A program made the position numbers and the translations under genes. The notes beneath the pieces are model-generated. The model worked only from the letters and a program-made list of their open reading frames with translations. It was not told where the DNA came from and made no database searches. 64,000 bases of DNA from assembly GCA_018432315.1 (NCBI GenBank), contig JAHDLB010000018.1, forward strand, positions 1 through 64,000, written 5' to 3'. Position 1 is the stretch's first letter; every line of letters begins with the position of its first letter. Origin of the DNA: Anaerolineae bacterium (GTDB lineage: Bacteria; Chloroflexota; Anaerolineae; Aggregatilineales; Aggregatilineaceae). Of this stretch, positions 15,326-44,643 are shown piece by piece.

Positions 15326-16792
15326 CTAATCCTCCGACTCGCCGTCCTGTTTGGGCAGGCGGGTATGTTTTGCTGCATCGTCCACGCGAAGCGGATCGGT
15401 GTGGGCGTAGTACGCGCGGGTCGTTTCCACCGAGCGGTGTCCGAGATAATCTTGCACCACGTCCAGCGGAGTCCCGGCGTTGATAAGCTGGGTAGCGCGC
15501 CAGTGACGAAAGTCGTGCGGGCTTATCTTCTTCAGGCCCAGTGCACGCGCGGCCCGCTGGACGACCCGCCACGCCACAACACGGCTCATGCGGCTGCCGT
15601 CGAAGCGTGGCGCGTGGCTCACGAACAGTGGCACCTCGCCGCGAGACGTTGCGCGCAGGTTCGCTCCGCGAGCGCGAATGTAAGCGCGAATCGCGGGCAG
15701 AGAGTCGAAAAAGCGCAGGTAATACGTGTGGCCGCCTTTGCCCACGACCTCCACGCGCAGTACGTCGTTTTTGCTCAGGTATCGCTCGGGAAAGTCCGAC
15801 AAGTTCAGGCTCAGGACTTCGCTTATCCGCCCGCCGGTTTCCGCCAGGCTGTGCAATAGGGCGCGGTTCCTGAGCTGCGTGAGTTCCCATTGGCGGATTT
15901 TCGCCGGATCGGTGTCAGCCTTTTTCAGGTGGCGCGGAGGCTCAAGGGAATCGTAGTAGTATATGATTTCGTCCATGTGCTCGGGCGGCTGTGGCGGGCC
16001 GCTGCGCTGTGGTCGGGTGCGGAGCTCGTCGCGGACGATGCGCCGCGCTTTTGCCAGCGGGAACTGGGCCGGCAGCCAACCGTAGTCGTCCAGGAACTGA
16101 AACCAGTTGATGATCCCGGCGATGCGCAACTCGACCGTCGAGGGTTTGTAGGGCCTGTGATCGCCTGAATGCGCTCGTGGCGGGGCGGATAGCATCCATT
16201 GTGCGAATTGGAGGAAGATCGGCGCGTCGTCGGATGACAGCTTCTTGATGGGAAGATTTTCGGGAGTGACGACCTGTGCCTGCTGGATTGGCAAACGAGA
16301 TGGAAACGATCGGTCCCCCAGGAAATCGAAGAAGAGCTCGATGGCGCGGCGATAGGAAGCGATGGTGTGCTCGGATTTCAGAGTGGCGCGTTGGAGGTAG
16401 GCGTCACGTGCATCGCCGAGCGTGATATCTTGCTGTGGTGCCGGCAGTGCGCTGAGGAGCCGTCTAAAGCCCGTTGGGAAGTCATCTGTCACATCTTCGA
16501 TTGTCAGGTCCGCGATATACCAGGGGAGTTGAGGTGTGAAGCGGATAAGCAGCGGGAAGACCGGGACGTGGTGGTGACGTGCCAATGTGCAATCCTGCAT
16601 TACAGATTCGCAGTTGATCGTGTCCGGGCTGACAAGTACGATCAGGGCCGCGGTTGCCGGGACTGCTGGTGTGTTATCCGAAGCGTGCTGTGAGATATGG
16701 ACGGTGAAACCTTGCAGTTGTAACATGCTCTGTAGACGGCGGGCGAAATCTCCATCCTGCTCTGCCGCGGTCACGGTCAAGGAATGAGACAT
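15326..16792 (-). CDS. tyrosine recombinase with an N-terminal TIR-like domain
   Basis: This is a 488-aa fusion. Residues 1-115 follow the TIR pattern of alternating strands and helices: a short N-terminal strand, the DGDFARRLQSMLQLQGF helix, ALIVLVSPDTINCES, a helix, then HVPVFPLLI and an IED/RRLLSAL end. The family's catalytic glutamate position appears to hold D (VMQDC), so NADase activity is doubtful. Residues 122-290 form the SAM-like core-binding domain. Residues about 300-480 are the tyrosine recombinase catalytic domain with all key residues: R in GGRISE (about 324), K in VGKGGH (about 349), H and R in HDFRHW (about 425), H in LGHRS (about 450) and Y in TRAYYAHT (about 460). It is preceded by an unusual nested-dyad region and a 1.2 kb gene-poor stretch. 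Substrate sites are unknown. The TIR call is by pattern only. Confidence 0.85.
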   Translation of the reverse strand: MSHSLTVTAAEQDGDFARRLQSMLQLQGFTVHISQHASDNTPAVPATAALIVLVSPDTINCESVMQDCTLARHHHVPVFPLLIRFTPQLPWYIADLTIEDVTDDFPTGFRRLLSALPAPQQDITLGDARDAYLQRATLKSEHTIASYRRAIELFFDFLGDRSFPSRLPIQQAQVVTPENLPIKKLSSDDAPIFLQFAQWMLSAPPRAHSGDHRPYKPSTVELRIAGIINWFQFLDDYGWLPAQFPLAKARRIVRDELRTRPQRSGPPQPPEHMDEIIYYYDSLEPPRHLKKADTDPAKIRQWELTQLRNRALLHSLAETGGRISEVLSLNLSDFPERYLSKNDVLRVEVVGKGGHTYYLRFFDSLPAIRAYIRARGANLRATSRGEVPLFVSHAPRFDGSRMSRVVAWRVVQRAARALGLKKISPHDFRHWRATQLINAGTPLDVVQDYLGHRSVETTRAYYAHTDPLRVDDAAKHTRLPKQDGESED

Positions 16793-16811
16793 GTGTCATT
16801 ACCCTTTGGAA

Positions 16812-16857
16812 TGTTACATAACAATGAATTGCGCTTCATTTCTTTCATTATGTTACA
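16812..16857. promoter_or_regulatory. nested inverted repeats upstream of the TIR-like recombinase gene
   Basis: The outer arms TGTTACATAA (16812-16821) and TTATGTTACA (16848-16857) are complementary with one mismatch. Inside them AATGAA (16823-16828) and TTCATT (16835-16840) form a second, perfect pair. The block is AT-rich in a GC-rich window and ends about 20 nt upstream of the recombinase start codon, where a promoter or operator would lie. On the minus strand GTAACATAATG resembles a -10 region. It could also be a recombination site. Confidence 0.45.
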
Positions 16858-17236
16858 CCTATGTCCAGAGAAATACAAGTACAACGTTCACGAGAAGTCG
16901 ACGTCAGGCGCTTTTATCGCACACGCCGGCGATTTCCAATACTTTCCAGCCCCCTACCCAACGATGATACCCTGGTCAACATATGTGAAAACATGCCGAT
17001 TCGGTTCGCGCAGCTTGAGTCTCGGCTATGGTTGAGCCGTCAGTCACACGTCTTCGCGTGAAGGCGGCACCTATAATCGGAGAATCACGCGAGCAAGCGC
17101 TTGTTTTCCATCATGGACAATCGTCTATTGGCGTGCATTAATCTTACTAAACGCACTTCTGTTATATTAGTATCACTGTTTTTGGTGCGGTTTTTCGCGT
17201 ATCGACCCGTATTCCGCGCTCATTTGCCGCGAAACA

Positions 17237-17248
17237 GAACGTGTGTTC
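17237..17248. promoter_or_regulatory. GAAC-N4-GTTC palindrome in the gene-poor region
   Basis: GAACGTGTGTTC is flanked by A and T, extending the dyad to AGAAC-N4-GTTCT. It matches the pattern upstream of uvrB, but no convincing gene begins on either side, so it may be a relic or a chance match. Confidence 0.3.
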
Positions 17249-17855
17249 TATCCCCGGCAAGACGGCAGTTATGAGGCTTTGCGACCGTATCTCATGCCCG
17301 GTAGAAACCGTTGCCCGCATAATCTTCTTGACACTGTAGCCCGAGAGGCTGCATGATGACTGCTGCCGTCGCTTGTGCGTGGCATGCCGTGTCCAGCTGA
17401 CACAGCTAGTATACAAGGAATGGCACGGCTCACAGGTGTTTCCAGGTATCAGATGCGCTCGTGCGAAGGTGTGCAGGTGTACGCTGTGCCGTCAGATAGC
17501 ACAACAGGATACTGGAGACGCCGCCCCTCGGAGCCAGGTCTGCTTCAATGCACAAGTCCACGAACGTCCCCTCCCCTGCCCGCCGGCGGCAGGCAAGCCG
17601 GCTGCACATCAGGATAGGGAAGACAACACTCATGATGAGCTGTCAGAGCACAGCGCTTGTTGACGCATGGTTGTCACGAGTAGACGAGCGCTTCATCGCC
17701 TGGACCGAAGGTGCGAGCGACCTGGCCAGCAACGGGCAATAGGGTCCCTGCCCTGTCGGCCATCCCCTCGTGCCGTCACGATGGTCGGGGCATTGAACCA
17801 TTCGCAGGAATACGTGCCGGCGATGATGCACCCGACCTCCGTACAGGCAGTGAGT

Positions 17856-17950
17856 AGTCTTACGGATCCAAACACAACGCTTTCGGTGGACAATGTGGGC
17901 TTGACTGCTTTTTACGGGAAAGGAAGGGATGGGTTTGGATCCGTAAGACT
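17856..17950. repeat. 95-bp segment bounded by 18-bp perfect inverted repeats
   Basis: AGTCTTACGGATCCAAAC at 17856-17873 is the exact reverse complement of 17933-17950. The 59-nt interior has no credible ORF. The geometry fits a MITE-like element, a recombination site pair or a long hairpin. No flanking target duplication was clear. A second copy was not seen in this window. Confidence 0.65.
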
Positions 17951-18017
17951 GAATGACTACACGAAAATAATGTCGTGGTTGTGGGTCATTTCCGGTTGGC
18001 CCATGACTACGCGAACC

Positions 18018-43710: not shown

Positions 43711-44643
43711 ATGCCGGCCAAACAACTCCCGCTGTTTCCAGGGCCGGGCGAGCATGTGCTCACCCGCAACAGCCCGCTCAGCGAAGCAATCCCCCCGTTC
43801 CTGGATCACCTGCGCGCGGAGGGTCGCAGCGTCCACACGATCAGCGCGTTCTCGTCCGATCTCAACCTGCTGCGCGAGTTCTTCGGCGACGAAACGCCGC
43901 TCAAAACGTTCACCACCACGCGACTCAACCAGTTCATGGAATGGATCGAGCACGGGCGCGGCGTGCCGTGCAGCCGCAAGTCTTACGCGCGCCGGGTGAC
44001 GACCCTGAAGGTGTTCTTCAAATTCCTGAAGGCCGAGCGCGTCATCCCCAGCGATCCCGCAGCGGCTCTCCTGCAACGGTCCGGCGCCGCCCCGCTCCAG
44101 CCGGTGCTGTCCAATGCGGACGTCCGCCGCTTGCTCGAGCACACGCAGTCCCTGCGCTTTGCCGACAAACCAGACGCGCGGCCCGATCTGCTGGTACGGC
44201 TGCTGCTCGACACGGCGATCAAGAAAAGCGAGTGCATGGACCTGACGTCCAGCCACGTGCACCGCGAGAACCCGGCGGAGCCTTTCCTGGTCATTCGCCA
44301 CCGCAAGCCTAACAACGTCTACAAGGAGCGCAACATCGCTCTCGACCCCGAATGGATGAGCGTCCTCGATGAATACGTTGAGCAGTACACGCCGCAGGAG
44401 AAGCTGTTCGAGTGCACGGCGCGGAATCTGGAATACGTGCTCAGCGACGCGGCCCAAGGAGCCGGCGTCGAGGGAAAGGTCTCGTTCGAAGTCCTGCGGT
44501 GGACCAGCGCCGTCCGGGACTACCTGCGCGGCGTAGACCTGGAAGTGCTCCGCGAGAAAATGGGCCTGAGCCGCATCAGTTGGCGCGAGACGGGCGACAA
44601 AATCGTGCGCTTGGCTGCGCTCCAAAATGAGCAAAAGCCTTAG
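43711..44643 (+). CDS. tyrosine-recombinase-like protein lacking the catalytic residues, 310 aa
   Basis: The overall layout is that of a Xer/phage integrase-type protein. A SAM-like core-binding domain spans about 25-120 (EAIPPFLDHLRAEGRSVHTISAFSSDLNLLREFFG ... RRVTTLKVFFKFLKAERVI). A catalytic-fold region spans about 130-305 (VLSNADVRRLLEHT ... LLVRLLLDTAIKKSECMDL). The active site is not conserved: the arginine of the usual GLRxSEL position is K (IKKSECMDL), the HxLRH motif reads FEVLRW, and the segment that should hold the second histidine and tyrosine reads GLSRISWRETGDKI. It is probably a DNA-binding paralogue without strand-exchange activity. The gene is stand-alone, convergent with rlmI, in normal host-like composition. 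Confidence 0.8.
   Translation: MPAKQLPLFPGPGEHVLTRNSPLSEAIPPFLDHLRAEGRSVHTISAFSSDLNLLREFFGDETPLKTFTTTRLNQFMEWIEHGRGVPCSRKSYARRVTTLKVFFKFLKAERVIPSDPAAALLQRSGAAPLQPVLSNADVRRLLEHTQSLRFADKPDARPDLLVRLLLDTAIKKSECMDLTSSHVHRENPAEPFLVIRHRKPNNVYKERNIALDPEWMSVLDEYVEQYTPQEKLFECTARNLEYVLSDAAQGAGVEGKVSFEVLRWTSAVRDYLRGVDLEVLREKMGLSRISWRETGDKIVRLAALQNEQKP

Follow-up and report, generated by a model that had tools for sequence, protein, structure and literature searches.

A TIR-like domain on a putative dif-linked, Xer-type recombinase in a lineage of Chloroflexota

In the XerCD/dif system of Escherichia coli, dif is a 28-bp site of 11-6-11 layout with an TTATGTTA-type arm. Systems in which the recombinase gene is linked to a dif-like site are described, in the available text of PMC5357621, for streptococci and lactococci (XerS/difSL) and for Helicobacter and Campylobacter (XerH/difH). 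The divergent, order-wide single-recombinase system of the Legionellales, XerL/dif, was discovered from a site located close to the maximum of cumulative GC skew, and a TIR domain is not mentioned in the accessible portion of that report (PMC9765430). A survey of dif sites predicted dif in three genomes of Chloroflexi, all of them Dehalococcoides, according to the portion of its text available (PMC3025954).

The locus described here lies in a 64,000-nucleotide stretch of DNA (the window; positions 1 to 64,000 of contig JAHDLB010000018.1) from an Anaerolineae bacterium, in which an open reading frame at 15326-16792 on the minus strand encodes, from its ATG, a 488-aa fusion of a TIR-like domain and a tyrosine recombinase. 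Like XerS/difSL and XerH/difH, it combines one recombinase gene with a genetically linked candidate site, and this site shares with that of XerCD both the 28-bp 11-6-11 layout and the TTATGTTA-type arm. It differs from XerCD in that gene and site are adjacent, and the protein remains far under the NCBIfam equivalog cut-offs for XerC (97.4 bits, cut-off 335.15) and XerD (98, cut-off 329.6); those for XerS (69, cut-off 267), from which it is far off in sequence, and XerA (86.6, cut-off 220) were not reached either. The match to XerH (5jjv, E 7e-7) is confined to residues 179-356 of a 369-aa query, the spacer is 6 bp as against the 11 bp given for difSL in the available text of PMC5357621, and the protein is set apart from XerS and XerH by its extra TIR domain. 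The likeness to XerL lies in the site near the skew maximum. On the best reading, which is drawn by analogy, the locus would be a previously unrecognised Xer/dif module arranged like XerS/difSL.

The recombinase and its chromosomal locus

The tyrosine recombinase catalytic domain occupies residues 304-466 (15395..15883, minus strand), where Pfam places Phage_integrase at residues 305-465 with 89.6 bits, and matches XerD (1a0p) with a phmmer E-value of 9e-12. It is preceded by a linker and core-binding (SAM-like) DNA-binding domain at residues 120-290 (15923..16435, minus strand, borders approximate), a region that is alignable across the orthologues (two rows are cut) and that includes a weak match to Phage_int_SAM_1, below its cut-off, at residues 131-160. 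From the alignment to XerD and the known active site of the enzyme class, R322, K352, H426, R429, H452 and Y462 are presumed to form the active site; the nucleophile could instead be Y461. R322, K352, R429 and H452 are invariant across 20 aligned sequences, two of them N-terminally cut, and H426 and Y462 are both present in the window protein, H426 being Gln in two rows from family f8 and Y462 being Tyr in all aligned rows but that of genome G011 (Y462F). The f8 genome G047, which is not among the aligned rows, carries R322Q. The initial annotation had held that the R, K, H-x-x-R, H and Y of a working enzyme are kept. All six residues are in place, and the window protein is predicted to have a complete tyrosine recombinase active site and is apparently active. 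A full-length fold prediction from four sequences had a pLDDT of 49.5, too low for any claim.

Orthologues were sought in a first set of 41 genomes (22 with the gene and 19 without it), later enlarged to 154 genomes of the order, 27 of which contain the recombinase (E of at most 1e-60). Family f1 has the gene in 15 of its 18 genomes. Nine of these genes encode the TIR domain (G000, G001, G002, G009, G010, G011, G012, G014 and G015), four lack it (G004, G013, G016 and G017, all of one genus, to which the TIR-bearing G015 also belongs), and two are truncated by contig ends (G005 and G006). The recombinase is without TIR in the members examined of f5, f6, f8 and f60, the last from another order. 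When the search was widened to the class, 18 of 396 genomes matched, comprising two of f1, four of f8, three of f60 (in which no TIR was seen) and nine of f11 or f52, whose frames of 321-352 aa are too short to hold a 119-aa TIR domain before the match; at the level of the phylum and E 1e-40, the one match among 400 genomes was the window's own. The fusion frame is open in nine genomes and is therefore not a chance product, and, as judged from these sequences, the TIR domain is a lineage-specific accessory addition in one family. Beyond these genomes, none of 11 plasmid records (query G015) or 25 phage records (query window protein) covered 80% of the query as a TIR-recombinase fusion would, and no report of a TIR-tyrosine recombinase fusion was found among the listed titles and abstract openings of open-licence literature.

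The f8 orthologues show changes of their own: the first catalytic Arg is Gln in L036, the locus of G047, and the His of HxxR is Gln in L056 and L057. No dif-like site was found upstream of the genes at L036 and L056-L058, and the system may have been abandoned or relocated in that lineage.

In f1 the chromosomal position of the recombinase gene is largely fixed. It is followed by a small unnamed gene (120 aa in the window, with no family match) in 14 of 15 loci. Of the 11 loci with enough upstream sequence, 8 have a cobalamin adenosyltransferase gene as the next one; in G002 a long frame separates this gene from the recombinase, and in G012 and G015 the adenosyltransferase gene was not found adjoining the recombinase. 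HflX and TrmFO are encoded further out, and the domains of a further neighbour mark it as a sensor histidine kinase. Profile scores for the named neighbours were 188.5 bits for the adenosyltransferase (cut-off 108.45), 445.4 for HflX (216.75) and 657.6 for TrmFO (262). Between the recombinase and adenosyltransferase genes of the window, positions 16793-18017 form a gap of about 1.2 kb with no convincing gene, which exceeds the roughly 180-690 bp seen in seven relatives in which both genes are adjacent.

The Phage_integrase domain invites the reading of a phage or mobile-element integrase that has acquired a TIR domain. This is extremely unlikely, and was rejected in view of the largely fixed f1 locus and of the absence of close viral relatives: six peptide patterns found none in viral contigs, and the best 10 of 25 phage rows reach no more than 72% query coverage, with identities of 23-38%.

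The upstream site and the GC-skew switch

The dif-like site, GTGTAACATAA-TGAAAG-AAATGAAGCGC, lies at 16831-16858 on the minus strand, 38 bp before the start codon, and consists of 28 bp in the 11-6-11 arrangement. Its arms match each other at just 5 of 11 positions. Across sites the arm match runs from 3 of 11 in G015 to the perfect inverted repeat of the f6 genome G022 (TGCTAACATAA CTTATG TTATGTTAGCA); the site of G017 reads TTGTAACATAA GCAAAG AAATGTTACAA. At the outer six arm positions, 58 of 90 comparisons match in inverted orientation, a count reached by none of 20,000 shuffles, against 29.5 expected, the sequences being related. Several TIR-bearing genes have a poor arm 2, which could point to a partner recombinase, and an additional recombinase of about 340 aa that recurs in f1 may be such a partner. 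An extra third arm, TTATGTAACA, is located 26 bp after arm 1 in the window (16812..16821, minus strand) and occurs in 6 of the 8 TIR-bearing genes with a site as against 0 of the 7 TIR-less genes with one. Because site, TIR and core-binding half lie next to one another on the DNA and can travel together, the association of the third arm and the weak arm 2 with TIR is not independent evidence.

The pattern TAACATAA-N6-WWATG was found in 16 of the first 41 genomes and immediately upstream of the recombinase gene in 15, out of 22 that bear the gene; the exceptions are G005 and G006, where the gene is cut, G011, which has no site in the 176 bp available upstream, and four genomes of f8, a family in which the recombinase is present and no such site stands upstream. 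Among the 19 genomes that lack the gene it had no match. Elsewhere there are three stray matches (G000:C27, G010:C388 and G030:C17). Within the window the site is the sole match at up to two mismatches, with 0.23 expected by chance. In f1 the same locus has the same kind of site whether or not the gene encodes a TIR domain.

GC skew was measured on the contigs of nine site-bearing genomes, all of them drafts; with their common gene order the f1 genomes do not count as independent cases, and the neighbours in f6 differ. The cumulative GC-skew maximum fell within 553 bp of the site on six of the nine contigs, at distances of 13 bp (G028, f6), 53 bp (G004), 103 bp (the window's genome), 307 bp (G015), 318 bp (G002) and 553 bp (G009). 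On the window contig it lies at 16743; this contig offers only 16.8 kb to the left of the site, and the cumulative curve climbs little before its maximum (127). A two-segment change-point placed the switch 58 and 56 bp from the site in G013 and G017, whose cumulative maxima are 36 and 40 kb off; it lay 1,153 bp off on the window contig and 40 kb off in G002, and in G001 both measures put the switch 64 kb from the site. On all nine contigs the 5 kb to the left of the site have positive skew and the 5 kb to its right have negative skew. As a control for gene direction, third-codon-position skew was compared between genes directed toward the site and genes directed away from it, and was greater in the former on all nine contigs (pooled, +0.051 for 524 genes toward the site vs -0.112 for 488 away from it, with mechanically picked ORFs), so that gene direction alone does not account for the switch. 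A tenth contig, that of the siteless f8 genome G047, has no skew switch at its recombinase gene.

The element could also be an operator or promoter and nothing else, with the real dif and Xer located elsewhere. It stands 27-103 bp from the start codon across genes and, by eye, overlaps a TTGACA-N17-TAACAT-like promoter in f5 and one f6 genome; the window's genome has 13 Phage_integrase matches, and XerD-like proteins are encoded in f5, f6 and G030, with XerD-profile scores of 293-309 bits in G021, G022, G028 and G030, all outside f1. The XerD cut-off of 329.6 bits was passed by no genome of the set, a result of little weight since just 4 of 14 control genomes pass it. Against this stand the dif-like 11-6-11 geometry and the coincidence of the skew switch with the element in both f1 and f6 despite their different neighbours, and a purely regulatory element is accordingly rather unlikely. 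The element may serve both as dif and as operator or promoter. The initial annotation had linked the recombinase to genome rearrangement; it does appear active, but the gene-tied site and the skew switch replace a generic role with a more specific one, and the protein is in all likelihood an Xer-type enzyme linked to dif at the replication terminus.

An FtsK_gamma domain is encoded in 40 of the 41 genomes. Another Xer-like protein, P0002, is encoded in the window at 43711-44643 on the plus strand (310 aa; Phage_int_SAM_1 44.3 bits, Phage_integrase 27.6 bits) and has lost most catalytic residues, as judged by eye. Relatives that are 66-72% identical occur on six of the eight other site-bearing contigs, about 15-32 kb from the dif-like site, and a dead recombinase retained near dif could be a regulator.

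The N-terminal TIR-like domain

Residues 1-119 of the window protein (16436..16792, minus strand) form a TIR_2-like domain according to Pfam, AF2, VIA-align and sequence alignments. TIR_2 (PF13676) matches the window protein at residues 10-113, and residues 1-119 alone give E 2e-5 and 25.5 bits, below the cut-off of 28 bits. The identity of the domain is settled by the orthologues: all seven fused N-termini scanned, out of nine (G011 and G012 were outside the scan), match TIR_2 at E 0.01 or better, and that of G015, the best of the fused set with 98.3 bits, matches TIR and ThsB_TIR as well. Ordinary TIR proteins, taken from loci preselected as TIR hits, score 38-72 bits against an HMM of the nine fused domains. 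An AF2 model of residues 1-119 with six further TIR rows reached a pLDDT of 88.7 and a pTM of 0.83. Its top VIA-align match was a SPARTA TIR-APAZ protein (Z 16.9, rmsd 1.9, 116 residues aligned), the best 50 rows were TIR proteins throughout, and Foldseek returned 12 matches at E 0.001 or better, comprising 11 TIR chains and one RcsB, with receiver domains at weaker E. The sequence evidence outweighs the fold match because the AF2 input alignment was author-chosen, included ordinary TIRs and thus leaned to TIR. The fusion of a TIR-like domain to a complete-looking recombinase, as first annotated, was in this way borne out by Pfam, orthologues, fold and alignment, and both of the segments cited for it, LIVLVSPDT and VPVFPLL, are present in the 488-aa translation. 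The two checks proposed with that annotation, structure prediction and Foldseek of the N-terminus alone and a genome search for the same fusion and its neighbours, yielded the TIR chains above and the nine f1 genomes with their largely fixed locus.

The replacement of the catalytic TIR glutamate by aspartate, likewise proposed at the outset, was confirmed: D67 of the window aligns with E73 of G015, which we take to be the catalytic Glu, so that the residue of a TIR NADase is not found in the window domain. Glu occupies this position in two of the nine fused members (G010 and G015), Asp in the window and another residue in the remaining six. Seven of nine copies have no Glu there, and the Asp favours a non-enzymatic role, as had been suggested. 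The window domain, best described as a degenerate TIR_2 domain, also has a shorter segment between strands B and C than G015 and G002. It has fold and profile in common with SPARTA TIR-APAZ and bacterial TIR_2 proteins but differs from them by the Asp, the short B-C region, the recombinase fusion and the absence of a PADLOC match (no family at E 1 or better in a scan of this protein alone).

One alternative is that the TIR domain is a decaying passenger, a fused TIR gene that has no function and is being lost, all the work falling to the recombinase. The scarcity of the catalytic Glu, the absence of TIR from four genes of one genus and the low identity of the TIR part (26-38% in 8 of the 11 measured pairs, against 61-82% for the recombinase in these) are in its favour. 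The frame, however, is open across nine genomes, the predicted window fold is intact in the model, and in G014/G001, the one close pair, most other pairs being saturated, the TIR part has a dN of 0.121 and a dS of 0.535 (dN/dS about 0.23; recombinase dN 0.017, dS 0.391). Judged by this pair, the domain is diverging fast and yet is constrained, and decay remains a minority reading that is less probable than a retained function. In a tree of TIR rows several fused rows had no resolved placement, so that a single origin of the fused TIRs is not supported (the group test ignores 12 other TIR rows).

The gene of G015 is a mosaic. Its first part is closest to the TIR-bearing genus g2, and after alignment column 260 it is closest to the TIR-less g5 genomes, with 0.91-0.97 identity to G016 in windowed comparison; half-gene trees concur. 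The mosaic may be an assembly chimera. If it is not, it shows that site, TIR and core-binding half are exchangeable as one block.

This exchange of the TIR-bearing half, the fast divergence of the domain and the SPARTA TIRs as its nearest fold would all suit a second alternative, in which TIR places the recombinase in a defence or conflict system that, for example, guards dif from Xer-hijacking elements or reports infection. PADLOC matched nothing for the window protein, the named neighbours are of housekeeping type, the strict site pattern has seven matches in viral contigs, about the number expected by chance on our own estimate, and the Glu is mostly lost; such a placement is improbable. 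The corresponding proposal for the mechanism, that TIR couples dimer resolution to an infection or stress cue or keeps integrative elements from hijacking dif and Xer, is equally doubtful. If it were true, the terminus recombinase would be a sensor as well as a resolvase, and the fast TIR divergence and TIR-half exchange would be signs of conflict.

TIR domains also occur apart from the recombinase in f1. A TIR protein that stands on its own, about 180 aa long (L006:1345-1884, minus strand) and with a membrane-like C-terminal helix by eye, is found in 10 f1 genomes with or without the fused recombinase and forms its own TIR clade. L078 of G011 has two adjacent TIR-like frames, and the long C-terminal parts after them are similar by eye.

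Proposed role of the module

Taken as a whole, the locus is probably an Xer/dif dimer-resolution module with an upstream site, in which TIR would be a non-catalytic interaction module that tunes recombination at dif. The protein would serve this Chloroflexota lineage as a dedicated Xer recombinase, bind the 28-bp site upstream of its own gene and, probably together with FtsK, recombine two dif copies so that chromosome dimers are resolved; one recombinase may suffice for this. The dimer-resolution role is assigned by analogy with the gene-site linkage of XerS/difSL and XerH/difH and with the XerL site near the skew maximum. Since the site is at the promoter region of the gene, binding may also repress the gene, which would amount to autoregulation. 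The TIR domain would have been added to the N-terminus of the recombinase in one family, after which the catalytic Glu was mostly lost, and it would most likely act through protein contact rather than NAD cleavage, as an interaction or oligomerisation module, adjusting how the recombinase assembles or works at dif.

What is new is a probable gene-linked Xer/dif module of its own sequence type, to which a TIR domain, an immune-type domain not expected on such an enzyme, has been added in one family. If this reading is right, it adds such a module to the Chloroflexota, and the fusion is the sole case, in the genomes, plasmid and phage records and literature searched, in which a likely chromosome-dimer resolvase carries a TIR domain. 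The TIR-bearing and TIR-less genes at the same f1 locus constitute a natural comparison, by which the role of a Glu-less TIR domain on a DNA-recombining enzyme would be directly testable.
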